DNA from: Tistrella mobilis | GTDB taxonomy: Bacteria; Pseudomonadota; Alphaproteobacteria; Tistrellales; Tistrellaceae | DNA length: 64,000 nucleotides | Assembly: GCF_041468085.1 (NCBI RefSeq) | Contig: NZ_CP121015.1 | Coordinates: 434,001-498,000 of the forward strand | Direction: 5' to 3' | Shown: positions 5,316 through 64,000 of the stretch, in pieces | Position numbering within the stretch: position 1 is the first letter of the stretch | Layout of the letters: each line of letters begins with the position of its first letter | Program-made: the position numbers and the translations under genes | The notes under the pieces: generated by a model | Seen by the model: only the letters and a program-made list of their open reading frames with translations | Databases searched by the model: none | What the model was told of the DNA's origin: nothing

Positions 5316-5328
5316 GGAGGCTCCGGCC

Positions 5329-8300
5329 ATGGCCGCACCCCGCCTGTCGATTCTGCCTTTCCTTCAGTCCTGGGACGCACCCGCCGGCCGCCTGACGGTG
5401 AACCTGCTGCTGGTGCCGGTGGGCGACCCGGCCCAGCCGCTGGGGCCCCCCACCGCCCCGGCCTTCCAGGGCACGACGCTGCGTCTTGCCGCCCATATCT
5501 CGGATGATCCCGGGCGGGTGGCGACCCTGGCCGACGTGCCGGCCGGGGCGCAGGTCTTCGATCTGCCGCCGCCGCCGGACCAGGCGGCGCTGTTCGACTG
5601 GCTGCGCACGGAATTCAAGCTCACCCTGCCCGAGACGGTGCATGTCCGCAGCAACGACTTCCGGCTGCGCAAATACCTGCCGCTCAGCTATCGCCGCTCT
5701 CATGGTTTCGTGGCGCCGAAAACACCGCTCGCCTCGATCGACGACACCTATCACTGCCTGCTGAAATGCCCGCCGCCCCCGGCGCGCCCCACCCCGCCCG
5801 AAACCGACGAGATGAGCTGGGGCGAAGGCTTCGCGGTGCTGCTGCGCCAGCCGCCGATCGCCCGCGCCGCCGGGCTCATCCATACCGTCACGCTCGACCT
5901 GCCGGAACCGGCGCCGGGCCAGGCCCATCCGGGCGGCTGGCTGTTCTTCTCGCTGGCGGCCGGCCATCCCTTCGCGGCCGAGGCCGCCGCCGATCCGGGC
6001 TGGGCGAAGCTCTACGCCACCCGCCTGCCCCGGCTGGACCGGGCGGAGCCCCGGCCGGTTTTCACCGCCACCCTCTTCCCCGTGGCGGCGGATGCCGCGG
6101 CGGCGGCGGCGCTGGGGCCGCTCGACCAGGTCTTTCCGGAAGCGGCCGTCTTCGACGACGGCTTCGCCAAGATCGTTCATGCCCGCCAGCCGATCCATGC
6201 CGATGGCAGCGCCGAAGACGCGGCCGGCGGCCCGCCGCTCCGGCTCGACCCGGGCATTCAGCTGGCCTGGGACGACGAGGACACGCTGGTCGCCACCAAC
6301 CGTGCCATCGGCACCGAGATGGACGGCTCTCTTCCCCCTGAGGCGCCGAGTGCCGTCTTCGGCTACCGTGTCGATGTGCGGGCGGCCGGCGATGCCGGCT
6401 GGACCTCGCTGCAGGCGGTCACCTCGCCCGGCTTCACGGTCGGCGGTGCGGCGATCCCCGCATTCGATGCCGAGGGCATCGTCGAGGTTCACCCCATGAC
6501 CGTTGCCGGCCAGTTCTGGCTGCCGGTCTTTTTCGCCCGCTGGGCCGGCGGCTCGCTGGTCGCCCCCGGCGATGACGAAGTGCTGCTGCGCGGGCCGGCG
6601 CGAACCGCGGCGCTGCCCTATTCCGGCACCGGTGCCGATGCGGTGCCGCTGCGCTATGGCCGCGACTACGAATTCCGCGTGCGGCTGGCCGATACCACCG
6701 GTGGCGGCCCGGCGGCGGATACCGATCCGGTCAACCCGGCCGCGGCGCCGGTGGCACGCCAGGCCTTCCGCCGGATGATCCCCCCCGGCCCGGTGCGCAG
6801 CCGCGACCTGGACGGGGCCGGCGCCCACACGCCCCGGCATTTCCAGATCCAGCGGCCGCGGATCGGCTATCCACAGGCGGTGTTCACCGGCTTCCCCGGT
6901 GCCTTCGACCATCTGGCGGCGATCGGCCGCGCCAATCAGGGCCGGCCACCGGCCGCCTGGGTGGTGCCCGACATGCCCGATCCGGATGCCGAGCTGCTGG
7001 AGATCCGCGTCCTGGTCCAGGCGCCGCGCTTCGACCCGGCCGGCGGCGATGCCAGCTTCACCGAGCTTTACCGCACCACCCGCGCCTTCCCGGCGCTGGT
7101 CGATCCGGCCGCCCCGGCGGTGCTGGACCTCACCCTCGACTGGGTGGATTGCGCGCGCCTTTCCGACATCGCCTGGCCGATGGATGGCGGCCTGCCCGGC
7201 GCCGGGCCGGTGGTGGTGCCGCGCGGCCGCAATGTCCGGGTGCTGGTGCGGGCGCTGGGCCGTGCGGATCCGGGCTATTTCGGGTCTGAGGCCGCGCGTC
7301 TGGGCAGCCCGGGAGAGCTGTGGCCGGGCACGGTGACGGTGCCGCTCTCGCCCGAACCGCCACTGTTTGCGCCGACCACCGATCAGGAGCGTCTGGCCTC
7401 GGTCTTCCTGCAACCGGAAGTGCCGCGCGCGGCCGAAACCGCGGTGGCGGCCGCCCAGCCGGGGGCCACGAAGCTGATGGTCACACGGCTTGCCGCCGCA
7501 ACCGGGCTGGTGGCAGAGGACGGCACGCTCTACGGCGTCCCCGGCCGGCGCACGGTATTCGGCTGCGCCGGGCTGAAACATCACCTGGCGCCCGATGGCG
7601 GCGCGCTGACCCTGACCAGCCCGGTGGAGCTGGAACAGGTCTGGCTGAACCTGGTGCGCCTCAGGCTGGATCGCGACTGGAGCTGGACGGGGTTGTCCAG
7701 CCCCGCCGTCACCGTCTCGCGGCGGGTGGAGCTGCTGCCGATCGGCCAGATCTCGACCCGGTCGCTCGGAAGCATATCGGTCGATCATGCGATCAACGGC
7801 CAGGCGCTCAGGGCCGCCCCCGACCGCGAGAGCCTGGATCTGGTCTTCCTCGACGCGCTGGAACCGCCCACCGGCCCCGACGGCCACCCTTACGAGGTCC
7901 GTCTGACCTATAGGCTGACCGCGCGTTTCGACGATGGCGGCACGCAATCGGTGGAGGTGGAAACCCGGCTGCCGGTCGCAACCGCGCCCAAGGTGGCGCC
8001 GAAACTGGTCTCGGCCGGCCATGCCTTTTCCGACTACACCATCCTTGGCGATTACGAGGCGACCGGCCGGCGGCGGCGCATGCTCTGGCTGGAATTCGAA
8101 CCCGACCCCGCCCGCGACCCGCGCGACATCATCTATGCCCGGGTGCTGCACCATACCCCGGATCCGATGCTGATGCCGGGCTGGGAACCGGCGGCCGACC
8201 CCGCCCCCTATGCCGGGCTCGACCTCGACCCCGAGGCGGTGCGGGTGATCCGCCCCGGCCAGGGCGACGACCATGCCGGGCTGAACGCCATGCAGCCCCT

Positions 8301-8973
8301 GATCAAGGCGGTGGACAGCGACGTGCATTACGCCCTGCCGCTGCCGGCCAATCTCTCCAGCCAGTCGCCGGAACTCTTCGGCTTCTTCACCTATGAATTC
8401 CGGGTCGGCCATCCGCAGGGCACCGAGGCGGCGCCCTTCTGGTCCACCGCCCAGGGCCGCTTCGGCCCGGCGCTGGTGATCGAAGGCGTGCAGCACCCGG
8501 CGCCCGATCTCGCCTGCGCCATCCGCCGCACCCGCGCCGGCATCACCGCCAGCGCCGGCTATGCGGTGGCGGTGCAGGATGGCCGGGTGATGCGCATCCA
8601 GCCGCCCAATACCGAGATCTGGTTCGTGCTCTACGGCCGGGTCATGCAGGCCGACGGCCAGAGCTGGCGCAACATCCAGCTCGACCTCCGCCGTGCCCAC
8701 CCGGCCCCCCGCCGCCCGACCCATGGTCGCCCGGTCGCCCGCCACCTGCCGCCCACCGGCCATGCCGCCTGGACCACGGCCGACATCGAAGCCCGCCTCG
8801 CCGCCTTCGGCTTCGACGACGCCACGCCGCTCACCGCACTCGCCATCGAACTCCTCCCCGAACCCAACGGCGCCTTCGACGCGCCGCTGGCGGGCGATCT
8901 GGGCCAGGTGAGGATCCTGCGCACCTCGCCGCTGGTGTCGGTGGGTGGGGCGTGTTGTCCGCCGGAGGTTTGA
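5329..8973 (+). CDS. Giant uncharacterised protein (1214 aa), second gene of the operon
   Basis: No characterised family recognised. The start is the ATG at 5329, preceded by GAGGAGG at ideal spacing and 13 bases after the upstream stop; an in-frame upstream ATG at 5230 lies inside the first gene and is unlikely. The protein opens MAAPRLSILPFLQSWD. No signal peptide or membrane segment is seen. Several stretches look like fibronectin-III or beta-sandwich repeats, for example FGYRVDVRAAGDAGW, YGRDYEFRVRLADTTGGGP and GHPYEVRLTYRLTARFD, suggesting a modular multi-domain scaffold. It is followed by a perfect hairpin and a convergent nuclease-like gene. Co-transcription with the 1556-aa protein implies a shared complex, by inference only. 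Confidence 0.75.
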   Translation: MAAPRLSILPFLQSWDAPAGRLTVNLLLVPVGDPAQPLGPPTAPAFQGTTLRLAAHISDDPGRVATLADVPAGAQVFDLPPPPDQAALFDWLRTEFKLTLPETVHVRSNDFRLRKYLPLSYRRSHGFVAPKTPLASIDDTYHCLLKCPPPPARPTPPETDEMSWGEGFAVLLRQPPIARAAGLIHTVTLDLPEPAPGQAHPGGWLFFSLAAGHPFAAEAAADPGWAKLYATRLPRLDRAEPRPVFTATLFPVAADAAAAAALGPLDQVFPEAAVFDDGFAKIVHARQPIHADGSAEDAAGGPPLRLDPGIQLAWDDEDTLVATNRAIGTEMDGSLPPEAPSAVFGYRVDVRAAGDAGWTSLQAVTSPGFTVGGAAIPAFDAEGIVEVHPMTVAGQFWLPVFFARWAGGSLVAPGDDEVLLRGPARTAALPYSGTGADAVPLRYGRDYEFRVRLADTTGGGPAADTDPVNPAAAPVARQAFRRMIPPGPVRSRDLDGAGAHTPRHFQIQRPRIGYPQAVFTGFPGAFDHLAAIGRANQGRPPAAWVVPDMPDPDAELLEIRVLVQAPRFDPAGGDASFTELYRTTRAFPALVDPAAPAVLDLTLDWVDCARLSDIAWPMDGGLPGAGPVVVPRGRNVRVLVRALGRADPGYFGSEAARLGSPGELWPGTVTVPLSPEPPLFAPTTDQERLASVFLQPEVPRAAETAVAAAQPGATKLMVTRLAAATGLVAEDGTLYGVPGRRTVFGCAGLKHHLAPDGGALTLTSPVELEQVWLNLVRLRLDRDWSWTGLSSPAVTVSRRVELLPIGQISTRSLGSISVDHAINGQALRAAPDRESLDLVFLDALEPPTGPDGHPYEVRLTYRLTARFDDGGTQSVEVETRLPVATAPKVAPKLVSAGHAFSDYTILGDYEATGRRRRMLWLEFEPDPARDPRDIIYARVLHHTPDPMLMPGWEPAADPAPYAGLDLDPEAVRVIRPGQGDDHAGLNAMQPLIKAVDSDVHYALPLPANLSSQSPELFGFFTYEFRVGHPQGTEAAPFWSTAQGRFGPALVIEGVQHPAPDLACAIRRTRAGITASAGYAVAVQDGRVMRIQPPNTEIWFVLYGRVMQADGQSWRNIQLDLRRAHPAPRRPTHGRPVARHLPPTGHAAWTTADIEARLAAFGFDDATPLTALAIELLPEPNGAFDAPLAGDLGQVRILRTSPLVSVGGACCPPEV

Positions 8974-8981
8974 GGGGCAGA

Positions 8982-9011
8982 CCTGTGCGGCGCGTTGACG
9001 TGCCGCACAGG
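8982..9011. terminator. Perfect inverted repeat between convergent genes, probable terminator
   Basis: A perfect 10-bp stem (CCTGTGCGGC with GCCGCACAGG) around a 10-base loop lies 8 bases past the stop of the second giant gene and just before the stop of the convergent DUF6035 gene. There is no T tract on either side, so it may be a weak bidirectional terminator or an RNA-end-protecting stem. Confidence 0.55.
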
Positions 9012-9018
9012 CTGAGGC

Positions 9019-10380
9019 CTACGCGCCTTTTCGCGGGCCACCATCCAATGAAAACTGCAAGCGGCCAAAAGCACCTTCCGGAAAGAACACGTTGAACACC
9101 TGGCCGGCGGTCATGTCCGGAGGTGATACAGCACCATATTCGGCTTCATTGCGTTCGCATTTTCGGGCGATGGACTCCACCTTCAGAAGTCCCGGCCTGA
9201 CTACATCGGCAAGCAATCTGAAGGCATGCGACCAACGGCGCCGCTTCACCGGTTCGAGCAATAGAGAATTGATAAGGTTAGGCAGATCAGATAGATGTAT
9301 TCTCGTTTGAACAGTAATTTCGTTTCTACGAAGTGTTGCCAATGCACCGAATGCGGCCATTAGATCATAAGATGAACCCAACGCATCCCATTGCATGCCA
9401 CCGAATCTTGTAGCAACTTTATTCCATATTATTTCTGCCGTGGCATGATCATTGATCTTCAATGCTTTGTAAAAATTATCGCGGGCGCCGGCCAGTTCTT
9501 TATCCCTCTCGACGAGACGATTCAGATAAGCATCATAAGAAGCATGAATTGATCGAGGACGACTACCCGCTGTTCCCCAGTTCAAATCCTCTGGAGAAAC
9601 AATCTTTGTTTTCCACATTGGAGAAAACTGCTCTGATACCGCCCCTGGTAGAAGCCGGTGGAGCTTGAAACGCGGTGCACCGACCTTCCGTGCCTCCGCC
9701 ATAACCTCGTCATCCAGCCCAAGAATCTGGCCGTCATTCCGCAGATAGATATCCTTGAAAGCCCGCCGGTCAGATTGCCAGTTGGAGCTGTCGACAACCC
9801 AGACCAGCCGGATGCCGTTGGCTGCATAGAAATCTTCCCGACGGACGATGTTCGGGAGTTGGGTTGTCGCCAGCTGGATTTCGAAAGCTGCAGGATCACC
9901 GCGCCACGATTTCGCGAAAACATCCGGGAAGGCATATCCCGTCTCACCCGCTCCTTTTATATACTGTTCCTGACTGACACGGGCGCTGGCCGTGTCCGGA
10001 TCAAACTCCAGGTTCTCCTGGATCATCGCTTTCAGTTTTTTATGGCGATCGCTCTCTTGATTGCCGCCGAATTTCTCGGCGTCTATCGATCGGACATCTC
10101 GCGCATTCGCTGATGCCCACAGGCAATTTTTAACTTCCGTACCGAAATGATAACAATGGCGGCGGCCCCTGGTGGATTCCCGCGCATAGACGGGGTGTCG
10201 GCAACAACCACACCGCAGAAGGGGCTTATCGGTTTTACGGGATCGGGTTGCCTTGGCACGCAACTCGGTCCATTCGGTTTCTGACAGCGAATGCAGGTAT
10301 GAGTCAGCGCGGATTGGCTCATCCAAAGCCCTTCCATCATCTATGAATACTGCCTCGACTGTCAGTCCACCGATTCTCAT
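9019..10380 (-). CDS. CoiA-like / DUF6035-type predicted nuclease
   Basis: A 453-aa protein with features of competence-protein CoiA-like and DUF6035 proteins. An N-terminal zinc-finger-like patch has C57-x2-C60 with a downstream CYHF (H78). Next comes ESDRHKKLK and then a PD-(D/E)xK-type core: FPDV with D153, followed by FEIQ with E167 and Q169. Gln in place of the usual Lys matches the E-x-Q form of CoiA-like nucleases. The C-terminal ~250 residues are helical and unrecognised. The ATG at 10380 was chosen; a GTG two codons upstream is possible and neither has a clear ribosome site. Base composition is AT-richer than the flanks, suggesting transfer. DNA cleavage in phage or plasmid defence is plausible but inferred. 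Confidence 0.7.
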   Translation of the reverse strand: MRIGGLTVEAVFIDDGRALDEPIRADSYLHSLSETEWTELRAKATRSRKTDKPLLRCGCCRHPVYARESTRGRRHCYHFGTEVKNCLWASANARDVRSIDAEKFGGNQESDRHKKLKAMIQENLEFDPDTASARVSQEQYIKGAGETGYAFPDVFAKSWRGDPAAFEIQLATTQLPNIVRREDFYAANGIRLVWVVDSSNWQSDRRAFKDIYLRNDGQILGLDDEVMAEARKVGAPRFKLHRLLPGAVSEQFSPMWKTKIVSPEDLNWGTAGSRPRSIHASYDAYLNRLVERDKELAGARDNFYKALKINDHATAEIIWNKVATRFGGMQWDALGSSYDLMAAFGALATLRRNEITVQTRIHLSDLPNLINSLLLEPVKRRRWSHAFRLLADVVRPGLLKVESIARKCERNEAEYGAVSPPDMTAGQVFNVFFPEGAFGRLQFSLDGGPRKGA

Positions 10381-10565
10381 GGCCACATAATATAATGAAT
10401 GTGAGCGCTCGCTAAACGGAATAAGGCGAGCACGGTCAGCAGGTTCATAGTCAGGCCCACTACCCTTGAGTAGGTCGGCTCGATACGAGCTGACTTGCCA
10501 TTCAAGCCGTCTCTCAGATTCTGAAGTCGTGACGTACGGCGCGAACGGTCAGACAGGACGCGCTC

Positions 10566-10664
10566 ATGGCCAGACAGAAGCATGCAGCCACCGCCAAAGC
10601 CGTTCTGGATACGCTAGGGCGGGGCGATACCGGCACCATATCGCGGCTCAATGCCAGGACCTGA
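10566..10664 (+). CDS. Possible 32-aa microprotein or gene remnant
   Basis: A short frame beginning MARQKHAATAKAVLDTLGRG and ending NART, with AGGA seven bases before the ATG. It is basic and helix-prone like the start of a DNA-binding protein, but too short to assign. It may be a real microprotein, a decayed remnant, or chance. Confidence 0.2.
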   Translation: MARQKHAATAKAVLDTLGRGDTGTISRLNART

Positions 10665-11108
10665 TATGATGGTCATGCTCGATAACAAATTCTCTGGCAC
10701 CTACGCCAAATGAGGGGCCAGTCCCCGCTCATGATCATCCGTCACATCTGGCGTAGCGACTTTCCTTGAGCAAAGCAATTTGCAGATAGTTCTGACATAG
10801 AATGCTATGCGCCACGTTACATCCAACAGCGGATCCCCAGGTTTTCTGCGGCTCAGGTGCGTGGATTGAAACACTGCCCCGCATAGAAATGCTCGGACGC
10901 CAAGCGGCAAATGGCGCGGAAAATCTTCCGCGTTGCGGCACTGCGGAGTGACGCAAACATCTGTACACCTTCTGTGTACACCCGGCACGCCTAGGCAAAA
11001 TCTCTAGGAACGATTTCCGGAGCAACTGCAGAAGACGCACTTCTGCTCATGGATCGTGCTTCTATGCCTGGACTCACGAAGCCGAGTGGGTTTAGGATGC
11101 CGTCTGCT

Positions 11109-34651: not shown

Positions 34652-36619
34652 TCAGTCGTTCCGCTTTTCCAGACGGTAGAGAAACTGCCCGACGCGCAGC
34701 CCGTGCCCCAGCGCATGGCGCATCAGATGCACACGGGGCGGCTTCGCGGCCTCTTCTGCCGAGGCCGGCCAGTCGTCGAAAACCTTGCGCATCAGGGCCA
34801 CATCCAGCACCTCGCGCGCCAGGGGCGATCTTTCGATCCGCTCCAGTTCCGCGCGGATCCAGTCCCGGCGCTGATCGGCCCAGGCGAACCATTCCGGCTG
34901 CCCCGGCGCGATCCTGGTTTCCGCGGCGATCGGGGCCGGAACACGGCCGGCCAGCATGCGTCTGGCCAGGTAGCGGTCGATGCCGTTGCGGTGATACTGA
35001 TCCCGCGGAATGGCGAGACAGAATTCGACCAGATCCAGATCCGCGGTCGGATCGCGGATCTCGATCCCGTCCGCGGTGGTGAGGAAACCGAACCCGGCGC
35101 GGCGGACCCGCATCGCCTCGATGCCGGCGATCTGGCGATCCAGATCGGGCGAGCCGGTGCGCGACGGGGGGGCGGGATCAACCGCGCTCAGGCCCAGCCG
35201 GTCGGCCAGATCCATCCGCACGCCCACGAAATCCGCCCAAGGATTGGCCGGCAGCCCGGCCCAGGCCCGGCGGGTAAGCCGGTGACCGAAGGGCAGCAGC
35301 GGCCGGATTCCGTTATGCCACAGGGTCCGGGCCAGGCCGGTCCCCCGCCGCGCCCGCCGCTTCAGGAACCCCATGGCCTGGAGCATCCGCCCGCGGCGGA
35401 GGGCATCGGCCAGTCCCAGCCTGCCGTCATGGCTGATCGTGGCGTTTCCATAGCCGCCGCTCAGAACAACGGAGACCCCCAGGCGGCGGGCCAGATCCCG
35501 GACCGGCGGATACAGCCAGCCCGCGCTGTGCAGCGACGGCAGCGGCAGGTCGCGCGACCAGAAAAACCCGCCCATCTCTTCCTCTGCAAGCGAGGGCAGG
35601 CCGGCATCGACCCCATGGCCGGTGATCTGGGGATACATCGCGAGCAGGGGCTGAACCCGCGGCCATTCATCGATGAAATGCCGGGCCGGATCATGGATCG
35701 CGGCAACCGTCGGGTCCGGCCGGACGGTGACGGTGTGAAACATACGGTCCCGCTGCTGCGCCGCCGCGGTCACCACCGCCGATGAATCGAGCCCGGCGCT
35801 CAGATGGCACAGGAAGGGGCCGGTTTCCGGCATCCGGTCGGCAACCGCACGATCCAGAAGTTCCCGCGCGGCGGCGACATAGTCGTCATCCCGCCGGTAG
35901 CGGACGGAGCGGCGGGGGATCGGCGACCAGAAGGACCGCAGGGTCAGGGCACCATCCCGCCAGAGCAGGGCATGGCCGGGCGGCAGCAGATTGATATGCC
36001 GGTAGGGCGTCCGTTCCGGCGCCAGATGCTGAAGATCATACAGCCGGTAGGCCAGCGCCTCGGGGTCCGGCGTGTCCGGCAGCTCGGGAAAGCCCAGCAG
36101 CAGGCCGGGGCGCGAGGCGGCATAGAGGCAGCCGTCGACCACGGCGTAATACAGCGCGCGGTGGCCCATGGCATCCACGGCCAGAAGGCATGATCCGTCG
36201 CGCCCGTCATGGCGCGCCAGGGCGAAATCGCCGCGCAGCCCGCCCAGGGCATCGATGCCCAGCCGGGCGAGGGCCACATCCAGGATCTGTTCCGCGGTTC
36301 GGGCCTGTTCCGCGGTTCGGGCCTGTTCCGTCGTCCGGGCGGGGCTGCCGCCGTCAGGCAGTCCCAGCCGGTCGGCCAGACCGGCCGCCTTCAGGATATG
36401 GCCATCGAGAACCAGCCCCGACCCGTCCGGGGCCGGCAGGATCGTGCGGGGCCGGCCGGGGGCACGGCCGGGCCGCAGCCGGGCCGCCGTCGGCGCCCCG
36501 GGGTCGAGCACCGCCAGCCTGGCATTCACCGCAGTGAAAACGGCCGATGGCCGCAGGTGACCGGGCAGCTCCGGCCGGATCCCGACGGACGGCCGTACTG
36601 AGACGGCAAGAATGGGCAC
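34652..36619 (-). CDS. Asparagine-synthetase-like protein, probable lasso-peptide macrolactam synthetase (C protein)
   Basis: A 655-aa homologue of class B asparagine synthetase. The N-terminal glutaminase-like domain lacks the nucleophilic Cys2 (it begins with the GTG-initiated MPILAVSV), as in lasso C proteins, which do not use glutamine. The ATP-pyrophosphatase domain carries CHLSAGLDSSAVVTAAA, the adenylation loop. Lasso C proteins adenylate a side-chain Asp or Glu carboxylate of the core peptide and close a macrolactam with its N-terminal amine. It starts 54 bases after the precursor gene. Residues ~94-111 hold an Arg-Thr-Ala-Glu-Gln repeat encoded by 18-bp tandem repeats. Processing (B1/B2) and export (D) genes are absent nearby. 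Confidence 0.75.
   Translation of the reverse strand: MPILAVSVRPSVGIRPELPGHLRPSAVFTAVNARLAVLDPGAPTAARLRPGRAPGRPRTILPAPDGSGLVLDGHILKAAGLADRLGLPDGGSPARTTEQARTAEQARTAEQILDVALARLGIDALGGLRGDFALARHDGRDGSCLLAVDAMGHRALYYAVVDGCLYAASRPGLLLGFPELPDTPDPEALAYRLYDLQHLAPERTPYRHINLLPPGHALLWRDGALTLRSFWSPIPRRSVRYRRDDDYVAAARELLDRAVADRMPETGPFLCHLSAGLDSSAVVTAAAQQRDRMFHTVTVRPDPTVAAIHDPARHFIDEWPRVQPLLAMYPQITGHGVDAGLPSLAEEEMGGFFWSRDLPLPSLHSAGWLYPPVRDLARRLGVSVVLSGGYGNATISHDGRLGLADALRRGRMLQAMGFLKRRARRGTGLARTLWHNGIRPLLPFGHRLTRRAWAGLPANPWADFVGVRMDLADRLGLSAVDPAPPSRTGSPDLDRQIAGIEAMRVRRAGFGFLTTADGIEIRDPTADLDLVEFCLAIPRDQYHRNGIDRYLARRMLAGRVPAPIAAETRIAPGQPEWFAWADQRRDWIRAELERIERSPLAREVLDVALMRKVFDDWPASAEEAAKPPRVHLMRHALGHGLRVGQFLYRLEKRND
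36287..36340 (-). repeat. Three 18-bp tandem repeats inside the macrolactam-synthetase gene
   Basis: Three adjacent 18-bp units (36287-36304, 36305-36322 identical; 36323-36340 diverged) encode repeated Arg-Thr-Ala/Thr-Glu-Gln-Ala. Being in frame (18 bases, 6 codons), copy number could vary without breaking the protein. Confidence 0.85.
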
Positions 36620-36673
36620 GGACAGGTCCGCCGTTGATCGGAACCGGATGCTCAGCCGGTCAGGGCGGCCAGC

Positions 36674-36823
36674 TCAGGACTGGGGCGAAAAGTCGCCATC
36701 GTAATTGGGGCCGCTCACCCCCTGGGTCTGCTCGGAAACATATCCGATCTCCAGGCGCGGGGCCGACCAGACAGGCCGTGAGAACTCTTCCACCCCGGCG
36801 AAATGTTCAACATCGCGCTTCAT
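36674..36823 (-). CDS. Lasso-peptide precursor (49 aa)
   Basis: A 49-residue precursor starting at ATG 36823 with GGAG seven bases upstream. The leader (1-34) contains W19-S-A-P22-R-L24-E-I-G27-Y-V-S-E-Q-T33-Q34, matching the YxxPxLxxxGxxxxxTxG leader rule with Trp for Tyr; Thr at -2 is essentially diagnostic. The core (35-49) is GVSGPNYDGDFSPQS: Gly1 and Asp8 would form an 8-residue macrolactam ring, leaving a 7-residue tail in which Phe11 could be a plug. It is followed by its likely cyclase. Not found by size-limited gene callers. Product structure and activity are predictions. Confidence 0.8.
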   Translation of the reverse strand: MKRDVEHFAGVEEFSRPVWSAPRLEIGYVSEQTQGVSGPNYDGDFSPQS

Positions 36824-37125
36824 ATCTCTACTCCAGTTCGACAATTGGCTTACGGTTCGGATCATAGCATAGCAAGGCGCGGCGCCAAAGTATCCATCAC
36901 TCTTTTTACATGCAGGGAGCATCAGATACTCCAGAAGATCACGCCATACGCGAATCCTTCTCAAGGGCAGAGGCTTCCTTAAGGGCAAAGGCCTCCTCCA
37001 GGGCAAGGGGCCTCTCCGGGGCAGAAGCATGGGATCGATCCGGCCGGTGCCGGGTTGCCCCCGTAACCGGTCCCCCCGCCCGGGCGCCCCCCGCCCGGGC
37101 GATCGATCCCGCCAGGAGGCCCGCC
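36824..37125. other. Divergent intergenic region between lasso precursor and sorbosone-type dehydrogenase
   Basis: The left ~80 bases are AT-richer and carry the lasso promoter. The middle (36963-37030) has three imperfect repeats of about 19 bases around AGGGCAGAGGCTTCCTT. The remainder is GC-rich leader to the dehydrogenase, ending in CAGGAGG before the ATG at 37126. No other gene seen. Confidence 0.5.
36861..36888 (-). promoter_or_regulatory. Probable promoter of the lasso operon
   Basis: On the minus strand a -35 TTGGCG (36883-36888) and -10 TATGAT (36861-36866) are separated by 16 bases, 38 bases upstream of the precursor ATG. Good match to a sigma-70-type promoter. Confidence 0.6.
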
Positions 37126-45894: not shown

Positions 45895-46782
45895 ATGGCG
45901 CGCAAACCGGCAGAACCGAAGGATGACGGCGACGAAGCGGCGGCCGATCGCCCCGCCGCGCGCCCTGTCTGGACCGGCAATATGCGGCTCGCCCTGGTGT
46001 CGGTGCCGGTGAAGCTCTACGCGGCGGTAAAGAGCGGGGCGCGGATCCGGTTCCACCAGGTCCACGAGCCCTCGCACCGGCGCATCCGCTATCAGAAGAT
46101 CGTGCCCGGGGTCGGTCCGGTGGATACCGACGAGATCGTGAAGGGCTTCGAGCTGGACCAGGGCCGCTGGGTGCTGATCGATCAGGACGAGATCGACGCG
46201 CTGAAGGTGGAAACCCGCCACACGCTCGATCTGGTGCAGTTCGTGGGCCCCGACGAGATCGCGCCGATCTGGTTCGAGCGGCCCTATTACGTGGTCCCCG
46301 ACGGCGATCTGGCGGTCGAGGCCTATGCCGTGCTCCGCGATGCGCTGAAACGTGCCGGGCGGATCGGCCTCGGCCAGTTCGTGATGCGCGGGCGGGAATA
46401 TGTCGCTGCCCTCAAGCCCTGCGGCCAGGGGCTGATGCTGGAAACCCTGCGCTTCGCCGACGAGGTCCAGCGCGCCGCCCCCTTCTTCACCTCGATCGAC
46501 GAAGAGGCGAGTGATCCGGAACTGCTCGACCTCGCGGCCGAGCTGATCGAGCGCAAGACCTCGGCCTTCGAGCCCGGTCGGTTCAAGGACAATTACACCC
46601 GGGCCCTGCGCCAGCTGATCGACGCCAAGGCGGCGGAGAAATCGGTCGAGGTGGGCGAAGAAGCGGCCGGGGAGACGGGCGGCGGCGGCAAGGTCGTCGA
46701 TCTGGTCGAGGCGTTGCGCCGCTCGGTCAAGGACGGGGGCAAGGCGAAGCCGGCACGGAGCGGCCGGCGCAAGGCGGGCTGA
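45895..46782 (+). CDS. ku: Ku protein (bacterial NHEJ)
   Basis: A 295-aa bacterial Ku. The beta-barrel core reads PVWTGNMRLALVSVPVKLYA, IRFHQVHEPSHRRIRYQKIV, YYVVPDGDLAVEAYAVLRDA, and the helical arm continues to KDNYTRALRQLIDAK. A basic C-terminal tail (KAKPARSGRRKAG) fits DNA binding and LigD recruitment. It forms a ring on broken DNA ends. GAGAGG precedes ATG 45895. The ligD gene begins five bases after its stop. Confidence 0.96.
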   Translation: MARKPAEPKDDGDEAAADRPAARPVWTGNMRLALVSVPVKLYAAVKSGARIRFHQVHEPSHRRIRYQKIVPGVGPVDTDEIVKGFELDQGRWVLIDQDEIDALKVETRHTLDLVQFVGPDEIAPIWFERPYYVVPDGDLAVEAYAVLRDALKRAGRIGLGQFVMRGREYVAALKPCGQGLMLETLRFADEVQRAAPFFTSIDEEASDPELLDLAAELIERKTSAFEPGRFKDNYTRALRQLIDAKAAEKSVEVGEEAAGETGGGGKVVDLVEALRRSVKDGGKAKPARSGRRKAG

Positions 46783-46787
46783 AGCCG

Positions 46788-49226
46788 ATGACGGCCGACA
46801 CCCTCGACGCCTATCGCCGCAAACGGCGCTTCGACCGCACGCCCGAGCCGGATGCGGAAGACGGGGGCGCCGCGAAAGGCGGCAGGCTGACCTATGCCAT
46901 CCAGAAGCATGATGCCCGGCGGCTGCATTACGATCTCCGGCTGGAATGGGCGGGGGTGCTGAAAAGCTGGGCGATCACCCGCGGTCCCAGCCTGGATCCG
47001 AAGCAGAAGCGGCTGGCGGTGCGCACCGAAGACCACCCCCTCGCCTATGCTGGCTTCGAAGGGCGGATCCCGGAAGGCCAGTACGGCGCGGGCGAGGTGG
47101 TGCTGTGGGATCGCGGCCATTGGGAGCCGATCGGCGACCCCGACGCGGGCCTCGCCGCCGGGCGGCTGGATTTCATCATCCAGGGTGAGCGGCTGCATGG
47201 CCGCTTCGTGCTGGTGCGCATGAAGCCGGCGCGGAAGGCGGGGCGGGCCAGGGAAAAGGCGGAAAACTGGCTGCTGATCAAGCGCGACGATGCCGATGCC
47301 GACCCGACGAGCGAGGTGACCCGCCGCCACCCCGGCAGCGTGGCGGTTCAGCCGAAAAGCGCGGCCGCACCCCTGCCCGGCTTCGTAGCGCCGATGCTCG
47401 CGACCCTGACCGATCGGCCGCCGCGCGGGCCCGGCTGGGCGTTCGAAATCAAGCTCGACGGCTATCGCGCGCTCGCCGCGGTTTCAGGCGGGCGGGTGGT
47501 GATCCGCACCCGGTCGGGCCTCGACTGGACCGGCCGCTTCCCCGGCATCGTCAGGGCGCTGGCGGCGCGCGCCGACCTGGACGGCGTGCTGCTGGATGGC
47601 GAGGTGACGGCGATGAACGCCGATGGTCGCAGTGATTTTTCCGCCCTGCAGGCGGCGCTCTCCGCCGGGGGCGAGGGGCTGCATTACGGCGTCTTCGACC
47701 TGCTGGCCGAGGGCGGCGAAAGCCTGCGCCATCTGCCCTGGACAGCCCGCAAGGCCCGGCTGCGCGCCCTGATCGGCGAGACCGCGGGCGGGACCGTCCA
47801 TGTCGTCGACCACAGCCCCGGGCCGGCCGCCGCCCTGCTCGACCAGGTGTGCAGGGCGGGGTATGAGGGGCTGATCGCCAAACGGACCGGGGCGCCCTAT
47901 CGCTCGGGGCGCGGCCATGCCTGGCTCAAGGTCAAATGCGGCCATGCGGGGGAGTATGTGGTGGTCGGCACCTCGCCGTCTGCCGCCGGGCGACCCTTCG
48001 CCTCTCTGCTGCTGGCGGTCGTGGAGCGCGGCCGCTGCCGCTATGCCGGCCGGGTGGGCGCCGGGTTCGGCGACAGGGATTTCGCCTGGCTGGCACCCCG
48101 GCTGAAGGCGCTGAGCCGGCCGACACCCGCCGTCGATCGCGACACCATACCGCCCGCCATCGCCCGCGAGGCCCGCTGGGTGGAGCCGCGGATCGTGGTC
48201 CAGATCGTCCATGGCGGCCTGACCGGCGACGGGCTGATCCGCCAGGGCCGCTATCTGGGCCCGCGCGAGGACAAGCCGGCGGCCGAAGTTGAGGCGGACC
48301 GGATGATGGCCGTCGAGGAGGCAGAAGCGATGGACGAGACCGGAGACAGCCTGCGCGGCGTGCGCCTGACCCATCCCGACCGGGTGCTCTTCCCGGAACA
48401 GGGTGTCACCAAGCGCGATCTCGCCCGCTGGTTCGATGCCGTGGCGGAGCTGATGATGCCGCATCTGGACAACCGGCTGGTCAGCCTGGTGCGCTGCCCC
48501 GAGGGCCGGCGCAAGGCCTGCTTCTTTCAGCGCCATGCCGGCCGTGGCCTGCCGGACGGTTTCGCCGGCCGCAAACTGACCGGGAAGGACGGCCGTACCG
48601 AAGAGTATGTTATGGTCCGCAATCCCGAAGGCCTGATCGGGGCGGCGCAGATCGGGGTTCTTGAGCTGCATCTCTGGGGGTCGCGCATCGATCGCCCGGA
48701 ACGCCCGGACCGGCTGGTCTTCGATCTGGACCCCGATCCGGCGGTGGGGTTCGATGCCGTGCGGCAGGCAGCCTTCGACATGCGCGACGCGCTCGCCGCG
48801 CTCGACCTCGCCTCGGTGCCGCTGCTGACCGGCGGCAAGGGGGTGCATGTGGTGGCCCCGATCGCCCGCCGGCACGACTGGCCGGTGGTCAAGGCGGCGG
48901 CGAAGGCCCTGGCCACGCGCTTCGCCGACCATGATCCCGCCCGCTTCGTGGCGACGATGAGCAAGGCGAAGCGCAGGGGCCGGATCTTCATCGACCATTT
49001 CCGCAACGACCGCACCGCCACCGCGATCTGCCCCTGGTCACCCCGCGCCCGGGCCGGGGCGCCGGTGGCCTGGCCGGTCGACTGGAAGATGCTGGCGGAG
49101 ATCGACCGGGCCGATGCCTTCCGCCTGGGCGACCCCCTGCCCGCGGCCGACCCCTGGGCCGGGCTGGTGCCGCCCCGGCAGGGGCTGACGGTGGCGGCGT
49201 TGAGCGCGCTCGGCGTTACGGAATAG
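46788..49226 (+). CDS. ligD: DNA ligase D (phosphoesterase-ligase-polymerase)
   Basis: An 812-aa multifunctional NHEJ enzyme, in the Pseudomonas-type order. Residues ~10-150 are the 3'-phosphoesterase (IQKHDARRLHYDLRLEWAGV, WAITRGPSLDP). Residues ~200-500 are the ATP-dependent ligase, with the adenylated Lys in FEIKLDGYRALAAV. Residues ~520-812 are the primase-polymerase (LTHPDRVLFPEQGVTKRDLA, DLDPDPAVGFDAV, FIDHFRNDRTATAICPWSPR). All three catalytic signatures appear intact, so Ku-dependent end joining should be functional. Confidence 0.96.
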   Translation: MTADTLDAYRRKRRFDRTPEPDAEDGGAAKGGRLTYAIQKHDARRLHYDLRLEWAGVLKSWAITRGPSLDPKQKRLAVRTEDHPLAYAGFEGRIPEGQYGAGEVVLWDRGHWEPIGDPDAGLAAGRLDFIIQGERLHGRFVLVRMKPARKAGRAREKAENWLLIKRDDADADPTSEVTRRHPGSVAVQPKSAAAPLPGFVAPMLATLTDRPPRGPGWAFEIKLDGYRALAAVSGGRVVIRTRSGLDWTGRFPGIVRALAARADLDGVLLDGEVTAMNADGRSDFSALQAALSAGGEGLHYGVFDLLAEGGESLRHLPWTARKARLRALIGETAGGTVHVVDHSPGPAAALLDQVCRAGYEGLIAKRTGAPYRSGRGHAWLKVKCGHAGEYVVVGTSPSAAGRPFASLLLAVVERGRCRYAGRVGAGFGDRDFAWLAPRLKALSRPTPAVDRDTIPPAIAREARWVEPRIVVQIVHGGLTGDGLIRQGRYLGPREDKPAAEVEADRMMAVEEAEAMDETGDSLRGVRLTHPDRVLFPEQGVTKRDLARWFDAVAELMMPHLDNRLVSLVRCPEGRRKACFFQRHAGRGLPDGFAGRKLTGKDGRTEEYVMVRNPEGLIGAAQIGVLELHLWGSRIDRPERPDRLVFDLDPDPAVGFDAVRQAAFDMRDALAALDLASVPLLTGGKGVHVVAPIARRHDWPVVKAAAKALATRFADHDPARFVATMSKAKRRGRIFIDHFRNDRTATAICPWSPRARAGAPVAWPVDWKMLAEIDRADAFRLGDPLPAADPWAGLVPPRQGLTVAALSALGVTE

Positions 49227-60920: not shown

Positions 60921-61628
60921 TCAGAGGCCCAGATAGGCCTGTTTGATGTCGTCGGCGTCGCGGAGCGCCGCCGCCGGCCCCTCGCGGGTGACCCGGCCGA
61001 CGCGCAGAACATAGGCGCGGTCGGCAACCTTCAGCGCCGCGCGCATGTTCTGTTCGACCAGCAGCGAGGCAATGCCGCTCCGGCGCAGCTCGGCGATCGC
61101 GCCCAGGACGCTGCGCGCCAGAAGCGGCGACAGCCCCATCGACGGCTCGTCGAACAGCAGCAGCCGCGGCCGGGCCATCAGCCCGCGGCCGATCGCCAGC
61201 ATCTGCTGCTCGCCGCCGCTCAACCCGCCGGCCAGCTGGCCGAACCGCTCCTTCAGCCGCGGGAACAGCTCCAGCACCCGGTCGACGCCGAATTCGGGCC
61301 CGCCGCCATTCACGTCGACGACGCGGAGATTGGCCTCCACCGTCATGCCCGGAAAGATCTCGCGCCCTTCGGGCACATGGGCAAGGCCAAGGCGCGCGGT
61401 CTGCCAGGGCTTCAGCCCGTCGATCCGCCGGCCGTCGAAGGTGACCGAGCCGCCGGACAGTGGCAGCACCCCCGAAATCGCGTTGAGCAGGGTGGTCTTG
61501 CCGGCGCCATTGGCGCCCAGCATGGCGACGATTTCGCCCGGGCGTACCGAGAGCGACACCTCGCGCAGCGCAGTCACCCGGCCATAGGCGGCCGACAGCC
61601 CGTCCACGGTCAGCAATGCGTCAGTCAT
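60921..61628 (-). CDS. livF: Branched-chain-type ABC transporter ATP-binding protein LivF
   Basis: A 235-aa ATPase: Walker A GANGAGKTTLLNAI, signature LSGGEQQMLAIGRGLM, Walker B RLLLFDEPSMGLSP. The LivF type ends with DIKQAYLGL. It overlaps the LivG gene by eight bases. Together with LivG, LivM and LivH it imports a small organic substrate. Confidence 0.95.
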   Translation of the reverse strand: MTDALLTVDGLSAAYGRVTALREVSLSVRPGEIVAMLGANGAGKTTLLNAISGVLPLSGGSVTFDGRRIDGLKPWQTARLGLAHVPEGREIFPGMTVEANLRVVDVNGGGPEFGVDRVLELFPRLKERFGQLAGGLSGGEQQMLAIGRGLMARPRLLLFDEPSMGLSPLLARSVLGAIAELRRSGIASLLVEQNMRAALKVADRAYVLRVGRVTREGPAAALRDADDIKQAYLGL

Positions 61629-62412
61629 CCTCGGCCCCCAGATAGGCGGAGATCACCTCCGGATGTCGGAACACCGCGGCGGGCGTGTCGGCCACCACCG
61701 GCCGGCCGTCCACCACCACCAGCGCCGCCTCGCACAGTTCGCCGATCGCGGCCATGTCGTGCTCGACCAGCACGATGGTCCGGCCGACCGCGACCTTGCG
61801 CACCAGGGCGACGAATTCGGCGGTCTCGACGTCGTTCATGCCGGCGACCGGCTCGTCCAGGAAGATGATCCTGGGGTCGGTCATCAGCATGATCGCCACG
61901 GCCAGACGGCGCTGAATGCCGTAGGCGAGGGACGCGGCCGGCTGCCCGGCGATCCGGTCGAGCCCGCAGAGCGCCAGCACGCCTGCGGCCTTGTCCTCGA
62001 AGGCGGCCATCTCGTCGCGCCAGCGCCGGCCGTGCAGGATCCGTTCGATCACCGAATGGCCCATGGCCGAATAGCGGCCGTAGAGCAGGTTCTCGCGCAC
62101 CGTCGCCTGGCCGAATACGGCCGTGCGCTGGAAAGTGCGGCCGACGCCCCGGCGGGCGACCTCGTGATGGCGCATCGCCGCCACGTCCATACCCAGCACC
62201 TCGACCGTGCCGGCGCTGGGCCGGGTGATGCCGCAGAGGATGTCGAACAGGGTCGACTTGCCGGCCCCGTTGGGACCGATGATCCCGTAGATCGCCCCTT
62301 CCGGGATCGACACATCGACCCCTTTCAGCGCCGCGACGCCGCCATAGCGCTTTTCGATGCCCCGGGCGCGGACCGCAAGGGGCCGGTCGACAAAGCTCGT
62401 GCCAGCCGTCAT
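61621..62412 (-). CDS. livG: Branched-chain-type ABC transporter ATP-binding protein LivG
   Basis: A 263-aa ATPase: Walker A GPNGAGKSTLFDIL, Walker B RIIFLDEPVAGMND, and a slightly unusual signature SLAYGIQRRLAVAIML in place of LSGG(Q/E). GVGRTFQRTAVFGQATVREN is typical of LivG. The start is the ATG at 62412 (overlapping the LivM stop as ATGA); the longer frame reading through LivM is a shadow. Confidence 0.93.
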   Translation of the reverse strand: MTAGTSFVDRPLAVRARGIEKRYGGVAALKGVDVSIPEGAIYGIIGPNGAGKSTLFDILCGITRPSAGTVEVLGMDVAAMRHHEVARRGVGRTFQRTAVFGQATVRENLLYGRYSAMGHSVIERILHGRRWRDEMAAFEDKAAGVLALCGLDRIAGQPAASLAYGIQRRLAVAIMLMTDPRIIFLDEPVAGMNDVETAEFVALVRKVAVGRTIVLVEHDMAAIGELCEAALVVVDGRPVVADTPAAVFRHPEVISAYLGAEDD

Positions 62413-63416
62413 CGCCCGCCCTCCCCGCGCGTCAGCCGCGCCATCACTGCCCGGCCGATCTGGTGCAATCCGCCTGGCGCCAGCATCATCACCAGGATGA
62501 TCGCCAGCGAGAAGACCAGCACCTTGACGTTGGGGTCGAGCTTCAGGAACTGCGGCAGGATGGTGAAGATGGCGGTGCCGATCACCGGGCCGAACAGCAG
62601 GCCGGTACCGCCGATCAGCACGGCGAGCAGGGCATCGACCGTCAGCACCACCGAAAAGACCTCGGGCGTCACGATCTGGGTGTAGGGCAGACAGAGCGCG
62701 CCGGCCAGTGCCGCGACCGGCGCGCTCAGCACCAGCATCTTCAGCCGCTCGCGGAACACGTCGACACCCACCGACTGCGCCAGATGGCGGCTCTGGCGGA
62801 TGCTTTCGATCGCATGACCGAAGCGGGAACTGCGCACCCGGGCGAGAAAGGCCAGCACCAGCAGCAGGATCACGGCCGTGAAGAAGAAATAGCTCTGCGG
62901 GTCGGTGAGATCGACCGGTCCGACGGTGAGGCTCGGGAAGCCGAACAGGCCGAGCGGGCCGCCGGTCACTTCCAGATTCATCGCCGCCACCATCATCACC
63001 CCGGCGAGCCCCCACGAGACAATGGAGAAATAGGCCCCGGTCAGGCGCAGCGTCAGCCAGCCGATGCCGATCGCCAGCACGGCGGAGGCGGCCATCGCCA
63101 CCGGCACGGCCGCCACGAAGGGCACACCCGCTTCGATGGTCAGCATCGCCGTGCCATAGGCCCCGACACCGAAGAAGATGCACTGGCCGAGCGGCACTTC
63201 GCCGAGGCCGCCCAGCATCAGATTGATGCTGAGCGCGAAGAGCGCGAACGCGCAGGTATAGCCGGCAAGGCTGAGGATGAAGGTGCTCCGGACCCCGAAG
63301 CCGATCATCAGGATCAGCAGGATCGCGCCGAGCGTGAGCATGATGCCGGCCGGGGCGCCGCTGCCGGGAGCGGCAGCCGGCCGCCCGCCGGACGAGGTGG
63401 AAGACGTGTCGGTCAT
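62409..63416 (-). CDS. livM: Branched-chain-type ABC transporter permease LivM
   Basis: A 335-aa permease with about nine hydrophobic helices (LGAILLILMIGFGVRSTFIL; FFGVGAYGTAMLTIEAGVPF). The conserved FGHAIESIRQSRHLAQSVGV loop and LIGGTGLLFGPVIGTAIFTI are typical of LivM. Hydrophilic Ser/Gly-rich N-terminus precedes the first helix. Coupled to LivG by a 4-base overlap; 18 bases after LivH. Confidence 0.93.
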   Translation of the reverse strand: MTDTSSTSSGGRPAAAPGSGAPAGIMLTLGAILLILMIGFGVRSTFILSLAGYTCAFALFALSINLMLGGLGEVPLGQCIFFGVGAYGTAMLTIEAGVPFVAAVPVAMAASAVLAIGIGWLTLRLTGAYFSIVSWGLAGVMMVAAMNLEVTGGPLGLFGFPSLTVGPVDLTDPQSYFFFTAVILLLVLAFLARVRSSRFGHAIESIRQSRHLAQSVGVDVFRERLKMLVLSAPVAALAGALCLPYTQIVTPEVFSVVLTVDALLAVLIGGTGLLFGPVIGTAIFTILPQFLKLDPNVKVLVFSLAIILVMMLAPGGLHQIGRAVMARLTRGEGGR

Positions 63417-63434
63417 GTCGGTGCCTCTCTCCCG

Positions 63435-64000
63435 TCAGTGCCGGTGCAGCTGTGCGCGCCCCATCAGCCCCTGGGGCCAGAGGAGCAGAACCACGATCAC
63501 GAGCACCCAGCCCAGGGCGGGCGTCCACGACACGGAGACGTAGGTTTCGAAGAAGGCATTGCCGAGGCCGATGGCCATGGCCCCCAGCAGGGCACCCGGA
63601 ATGCTGCCCAGCCCGCCCAGGATCACCACCGTGAAGGCGGTGATCATGTTGGCGTCGCCCATGGTCGGGAAGGCGCTGATGATCGAGGCGAGCAGCGCGC
63701 CCGACAGGCCCGCCGCCGAGACGCCGAGCACGAAGGCGAGCGCACGGATCGTCGGCACATCGATGCCGGAATAGAGCGCGCCGCGGGCGTTCTGGGCGAC
63801 GGCGAGCAATTGCTGGCCCCGCACGCTGCGCTTCAGCCAGGCCGCAAAGCCGATCAGCACCACCAGCGACACGACGGCGATGAACAGCCGCTGCCCCGAC
63901 AGGAACAGGCCGAAGACCGTCGTGGTCGCCTGTGCGAACGGCGAGGCCACCGGCATCGGATCGGGGCCGGCCACCAGGATGATCGCGGCCACGATCGCCT
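63435..64000 (-). CDS. livH: Branched-chain-type ABC transporter permease LivH, C-terminal part
   Basis: The open frame enters from the right edge and covers about 188 residues of the usual ~290, including LAVAQNARGALYSGIDVPTI, GVSAAGLSGALLASI, and AFTVVILGGLGSIPGALLGA, the LivH permease signature. The start lies beyond the window (the GTG at 63992 is internal). The periplasmic binding protein that sets substrate choice would be expected upstream, outside the window. Confidence 0.92.
   Translation of the reverse strand, partial: AIVAAIILVAGPDPMPVASPFAQATTTVFGLFLSGQRLFIAVVSLVVLIGFAAWLKRSVRGQQLLAVAQNARGALYSGIDVPTIRALAFVLGVSAAGLSGALLASIISAFPTMGDANMITAFTVVILGGLGSIPGALLGAMAIGLGNAFFETYVSVSWTPALGWVLVIVVLLLWPQGLMGRAQLHRH

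Follow-up and report, generated by a model that had tools for sequence, protein, structure and literature searches.

The DNA analysed here is a stretch of 64,000 nucleotides from Tistrella (hereafter the window). On its minus strand it contains a small gene (A) for a peptide with the leader and core of a lasso-peptide precursor, followed by a gene (C) for a lasso-type macrolactam synthetase (cyclase). The features of the locus, in the order of the minus strand, are:

36831-36834, minus strand: GGAG, a probable ribosome-binding site seven bases upstream of the ATG of A (read from the sequence)
36674-36823, minus strand: precursor gene A, 49 amino acids, assigned from the open reading frame, leader and core motifs, and homologues in Tistrella and other genera
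36722-36823, minus strand: leader part of A, encoding MKRDVEHFAGVEEFSRPVWSAPRLEIGYVSEQTQ
36677-36721, minus strand: core part of A, encoding GVSGPNYDGDFSPQS, followed by the stop codon at 36674-36676
36620-36673, minus strand: gap of 54 bases between A and C (from the coordinates)
34652-36619, minus strand: lasso-type macrolactam synthetase gene C, 655 amino acids, with GTG start and ATP motif SAGLDSS, and without Cys2

The pair is confirmed as a precursor and a cyclase without Cys2, in a window in which neither B1 nor B2 was found. Judging from the coordinates, A and C are probably co-transcribed.

Precursor and cyclase of the window

The precursor reads MKRDVEHFAGVEEFSRPVWSAPRLEIGYVSEQTQ-GVSGPNYDGDFSPQS, with RPVWSAPRLEIGYVSEQTQ as the leader end, and the open reading frame at 36674-36823 (minus) agrees with its description in an earlier note on this DNA, i.e. 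a Trp-type leader with Pro22, Leu24 and Thr at position -2, and a core with Gly1 and Asp8. The core comprises 15 amino acids (Asp8 is Asp42 of the precursor), Thr33 is the residue at leader position -2, and W19, P22 and L24 form the RRE motif WxxPxL; among the lasso criteria, an RRE motif, a penultimate Thr in the leader and an acid at core position 7 to 9 were all found in this peptide. Gly27, which the same note had fitted to a leader rule, has to be withdrawn from the description, since the quoted rule places the residue at Leu+4 and it is found here at Leu+3, and since Gly27 is not conserved in the family. The Pfam family Subterisin (PF24178), which represents lasso peptides of sphingomonads, gave a match to residues 25-45 (14.9 bits, E 0.027) that stays below the cut-off of 27 bits, and an NCBIfam search of the precursor gave no match, including the paeninodin family NF033524. 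The lasso-type RRE consensus is given as [Y/W]xxPx[L/V/I/A/F/Y] in PMC13381572.

A strict precursor pattern, which was devised after the window peptide was known and which misses cores without Gly1, had no match in 1.6 Mb of Markov sequence or in the 129 kb that surround eight B2 loci, and five matches in 199 kb of the window's genome (the window, L020, L021, L023 and L027), all of them no more than a few kb from a cyclase or PqqD gene; because the pattern was devised from the window peptide, only the four other matches are independent.

The predicted N-terminus of C is MPILAV, i.e. position 2 is not Cys; the start is uncertain, the reading frame being open as far as 36673. Pfam gave matches to Asn_synthase (4e-23) and, in part, to GATase_7 (1.9e-7). 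The top NCBIfam model was the lasso cyclase NF033535 (122.3 bits; cut-off 525), followed by asn_synth TIGR01536 (101.8 bits; cut-off 267.1), both below cut-off; a control protein from the same genome (L022) scored 362.1 bits with TIGR01536. The NF033535 cut-off is non-discriminating in this cyclase clade, because none of six B2-linked cyclases tested reached it (141 to 372 bits). Counter-evidence comes from a sister cyclase (L023), which scored 103.6 bits with the asn_synth model versus 93.3 bits with the lasso model. When the PDB was searched with an AlphaFold model of C (mean pLDDT 78), TsnB9, beta-lactam synthetase and AsnB were matched, the folds being of the amidotransferase, beta-lactam synthetase and AsnB types; no solved lasso enzyme was found as a structural template among the PDB matches to the cyclase or to B2.

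A cyclase tree of 64 rows (midpoint root; duplicates L088, L089, L098, L100 and L105 and fragments L111 and L123 omitted) was prepared with proteins from the window's own genome, from 59 relatives, and from a scan of 84,980 species, each represented by one genome. C is placed in a nine-member clade (100/99) of seven Tistrella proteins, Ferrovibrio and UBA7691; none of these has B2 nearby, and all nine have an adjacent WxxPxL-type precursor. This clade is nested in a larger one with 26 members (100/99), six of them from loci with adjacent B2, and the true amidotransferases of the genome (L022 and L024) branch elsewhere, together with two others. The earlier note had proposed a cyclase-like protein without the glutaminase Cys2 next to the precursor, which the MPILAV start and the 54-base gap bear out. 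It had also named, as fatal to the lasso assignment, a grouping of C with ordinary asparagine synthetases and a precursor lacking homologues with conserved leader positions; C was found apart from the two true amidotransferases, and homologues that share the leader positions of the precursor are numerous. An ordinary asparagine synthetase is ruled out by the tree position, the absent Cys2 and the TIGR01536 score.

Lasso peptide genes are usually clustered as A, B and C. Own-built HMMs for B2 and PqqD detected neither in the 64-kb window (the B2 HMM was partly trained on the same loci that it later scanned), in line with the absence of B1 and B2 reported before. The ABC genes of the window are, by eye, an importer-like set at 60921-63992; an exporter may be absent from the window, judging from a motif scan of the called open reading frames.

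Other parts of the window comprise two large open reading frames at 645-8973 (1556 and 1214 amino acids) without a Pfam match at E 0.01, and a region at 9001-11000 in which the GC content drops from about 70% to 52-54%. The open reading frame at 9019-10386 (minus) has a match to DUF6035 and a weak match to a CoiA nuclease. At 45895-49226, a LigD with all three domains comes after a Ku-like gene (by eye), and the two represent an ordinary bacterial end-joining pair.

Precursor family and unlinked putative pathway genes in Tistrella

Alignment of 14 precursors showed W19, P22 and G35 in every sequence and L24 in nearly every one. Leaders of this family come in two spacing classes, with Thr either 13 or 14 residues after Trp. 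A search of three Tistrella genomes with these precursors gave additional weak matches, partly clustered, and some of them WxxPxL peptides without a nearby cyclase. A leader-only model (19 positions; built on 24 seeds, of which Tistrella supplied 22; core excluded) gave 78 places in the three genomes, of which the 70 best-scoring were read. A total of 53 precursors with E below 0.19 were obtained (16, 18 and 19 per genome); Asp or Glu is found at core position 8 in 44 of these and at position 8 or 9 in 52, a C-terminal Ser in 52, and a core length of 13 to 17 amino acids in 52, the exception looking degenerate. The seeds had been chosen by eye along with their cores, and the figures for the 27 precursors with non-seed leaders, some of them orthologues of seeds, are therefore fairer: 26 of 27 have Asp or Glu at position 8 or 9, and 26 of 27 the terminal Ser. 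When residues were shuffled in 52 cores (5,000 trials), an acid was found at position 8 in a mean of 5.6 and a maximum of 14 cores, compared with the 44 observed. Only three of the 17 read places with E 0.19 or more obey the acid rule.

When 144 genomes of the class were searched with the leader model, a threshold of E 0.01 left 14, 15 and 13 matches in the three Tistrella genomes and one match each in two of the other 141, the model being mostly Tistrella-derived and so biased toward Tistrella. Among 27 genomes (of 39 with related cyclases), 15 gave at least one match with E no higher than 0.2, in most cases one to three, and none had precursor numbers on the Tistrella scale; an array of four matches with the same acid rule is present in Oleisolibacter (G089).

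The window's genome contains 18 precursor sites (16 with E below 0.19, one at 0.204, and one of Y-type at L019), of which five are no further than 2.5 kb from a lasso-type cyclase and the other 13 at a distance of 51 kb or more. The term orphan locus, as used in the earlier note, is too narrow, the pair being one of many such dispersed loci in the genome.

Several of these sites have features of their own. With NF033524, the sister precursor at L195:5248-5385 reaches 24.9 bits (E 1.2e-5), against a cut-off of 27. Three WxxPxL precursors form an array at L195 (G000:C2:285-287 kb) and seven at L200 (T. mobilis pTM1, about 467-476 kb). Between the precursors of these arrays lie MBOAT-like and SGNH-like genes (by eye), and the stretches read at L195 and L200 showed no cyclase, PqqD or B2. 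At L233 (G000:C4:942487-942540), an intact leader precedes a 25-aa core that breaks the rule and may be frameshifted. The Y-type precursor (L019:15551-15697; G000:C4, about 3371 kb) lies beside a different cyclase and PqqD; its core contains GPTWDGDFS, which resembles GPNYDGDFS in the window core, and its acid is not at position 8 after Thr(-2). Tail-collar-like genes recur by precursors or cyclases at L027, L050, L055 and L197, and acetyltransferase-like genes at three of these loci (by eye).

A single protein of the window's genome exceeds the Pfam cut-off for PF13471 (B2), encoded at C1:736888-737229, on a contig other than that of the window, and the two other Tistrella genomes encode exactly one each. 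No cyclase, PqqD or precursor was predicted by the models in the stretch around the lone B2, which covers 10.9 kb in one direction and, in the other, the 3.3 kb up to the end of the contig. Its neighbourhood is common to the three genomes (leuA-like, sensor kinase and replication-protein-like genes, by eye). Over 155 codons, the B2 genes differ by 31 synonymous and 8 non-synonymous codons (G000 versus G001), 35 and 6 (G000 versus G002), and 16 and 4 (G001 versus G002), and the Cys and His are invariant across 16 rows of lone and clustered B2. In the PDB, the B2 model had no match at E 0.001 or better and the B2 sequence had no hit. A single B2 gene on another contig is consistent with the earlier statement that processing must come from elsewhere; the new protease offered there as an alternative is not needed, the genome having a lasso-type B2, and no novel protease is evident among the genes next to the precursor.

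The window's genome also encodes seven PqqD proteins over cut-off, one of which adjoins genes that resemble, by eye, those of a PQQ precursor peptide and a radical-SAM protein, and probably serves PQQ. Eight cyclase-like proteins comprise the two amidotransferases and six of lasso type, two of the latter (L020 and L019_15709) being long-branched and weakly placed in the tree. The closest paralogous locus (L023) contains a PqqD gene (C1:274360-274560), and also gave matches to a 2OG-Fe(II) oxygenase and, below threshold, to a sulfotransferase; kinase genes and sulfotransferase-like genes are carried by sister loci.

Linkage of B2 to cyclases in other genomes

The scan of 84,980 species (one genome each) gave 41 cyclase loci in 39 genomes, with B2 inside the fetched stretch at 20 of the 41. 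For the 27 loci with at least 6 kb on both sides, B2 was linked at 14 and unlinked at 13 (in 11 genomes), and for 12 of these 13 the genome has a PF13471 protein over cut-off elsewhere; the thirteenth, of Dyella, has a weak PF13471 match only, and the cyclase-like protein of this locus groups with amidotransferases. PF13471 over cut-off was found in 35 of the 39 genomes reached via the cyclase scan versus 11 of the 59 relatives. Within the relatives, B2 is present in 5 of 6 genomes with a cyclase versus 6 of 53 without (one-sided Fisher p 0.0005), three of the five genomes with both being of one genus. B2 genes without cyclase or PqqD in the stretch read were found, e.g., in UR115, Ferrovibrio, UBA7691 and Sphingomonas caeni; Ferrovibrio additionally has a complete cluster, and in UR115 (two contigs) B2 and cyclase are on separate contigs.

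Proposed pathway and comparison with known systems

We consider it likely that A and C of the window are members of a dispersed lasso-type pathway, the remaining parts of which are encoded elsewhere in the same genome. For such a pathway, a stand-alone RRE (PqqD/B1) would bind the leader at W19xxP22xL24; our best guess for this protein is the one encoded at C1:274360-274560, from the closest paralogous locus. The B2 cysteine protease (C1:736888-737229) would cut after Gln34, one residue beyond Thr(-2), and C would activate the side chain of Asp8 with ATP and join it to the amine of Gly1, to generate a ring of eight residues with the tail GDFSPQS, which may be threaded. For this product the calculated [M+H]+ is 1508.629 ([M+2H]2+ 754.818), or 1588.595 with a phosphate and 1588.586 with a sulfate group. 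The C-terminal Ser would probably be phosphorylated or sulfated in trans by enzymes of the sister loci, because a terminal Ser is near-universal and kinase and sulfotransferase-like genes are found at these loci. Thr at -2 is reported as a recognition residue for processing in PMC10368454.

The genes on either side of the pair, ExoD and one of dehydrogenase type, share 94% and 90% DNA identity with T. mobilis pTM1, and a 729-aa gene is found there between the matching flanks, in place of A and C; the pair was therefore either gained here or lost there. No orthologue of the pair was found in the two other Tistrella genomes searched, and no near match to the locus in plasmid records. The missing orthologues, together with another precursor of the genome that looks degenerate (C4:942487), would fit a remnant, i.e. 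A and C left over from a cluster that lost B1 and B2 and without a product. This is unlikely, however, as the frames of A and C are both intact with their motifs kept, B2 is conserved, and the C genes of related B2-less Tistrella pairs differ by 34/22, 90/46, 88/51 and 19/10 synonymous/non-synonymous codons.

An unthreaded ring, or another amide formed by C on the same peptide, would give a lasso-like macrolactam only. Threading is invisible in sequence, position 1 of the Tistrella cores is varied (Gly in 14 of 50 distinct cores), and the tails beyond the ring are short (5 to 9 residues); yet the usual lasso set is present in those clusters of the cyclase clade that have a linked B2, and the acid is fixed at position 8 or 9 in 52 of 53 precursors, so that we hold such a product to be improbable. 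Removal of the leader by another protease, or its retention, at the window locus is very improbable: B2 is unlinked to any precursor and the title of the pseudomycoidin paper (Zyubko 2019) suggests the possibility, but Thr at -2 is kept (although partly built into the leader model) and PF13471 co-occurs with the cyclase (5/6 versus 6/53 genomes).

Extending the dispersed pathway from the window pair to the genus, we lean slightly towards a combinatorial lasso system in Tistrella, in which 16 to 19 or more precursors per genome, single or arrayed on several contigs and most of them far from any cyclase, would depend on one B2, about six RREs and about six cyclases acting in trans, with a C-terminal Ser, present in nearly every precursor, as a site of phosphorylation or sulfation. 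The lone B2 and B2-less loci of Ferrovibrio, Sphingomonas and Hyphomicrobiales UR115 would then represent smaller versions. If scattered genes work in trans, many precursors escape cluster-based mining, and clusters taken as incomplete may be complete; furthermore, the use of one protease and few cyclases for many cores would represent a natural substrate tolerance that is useful for lasso libraries. As B2 is a lone gene, three or four genes would suffice for a test of the trans hypothesis.

In the literature, with subscription journals thinly covered, we came across neither a lasso B2 that acts from an unlinked gene nor a description of dispersed lasso precursors in Tistrella. Incomplete lasso clusters have been described for rumen genomes, most of them complete after manual curation, according to PMC7533575.

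A close likeness of the parts is to paeninodin-like lasso peptides (split B1/B2, HPrK-like kinase), which share the RRE motif, Thr at -2, the acid at position 8 and the C-terminal Ser, and to which the sister precursor near the NF033524 cut-off and the kinase and sulfotransferase-like genes at sister loci also point. PMC8498205 and PMC10368454 report phosphorylation of the C-terminal Ser of paeninodin-type precursors by HPrK-like kinases, and note a putative sulfotransferase gene in paeninodin-type clusters. In contrast, the window pair has no NF033524 match and no adjacent kinase, B1 or B2, and in Tistrella the precursors are dispersed and B2 stands alone. To the Subterisin family (PF24178), the likeness is the weak sub-cut-off match of the precursor, and the difference is a window locus without B proteins.

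Lanthipeptides with unclustered proteases (PMC8960859) are alike in that the leader protease is encoded away from the precursor, but belong to another RiPP class with different chemistry and a different protease. Linear polyphosphorylated peptides (PMC13381572) share a lasso-like RRE motif and kinases, but have a SipW-like signal peptidase and a 45-aa core, whereas the Tistrella cores have 13 to 17 amino acids and a fixed acid; the window locus, with its cyclase and its 15-aa core, was rejected as a member of this class. By analogy, the logic of these linear peptides could apply to dispersed precursors that lie by kinase genes and far from cyclases. Set against these systems, the parts and the chemistry are known ones, and it may be the dispersed layout, and its scale in Tistrella, that is new.
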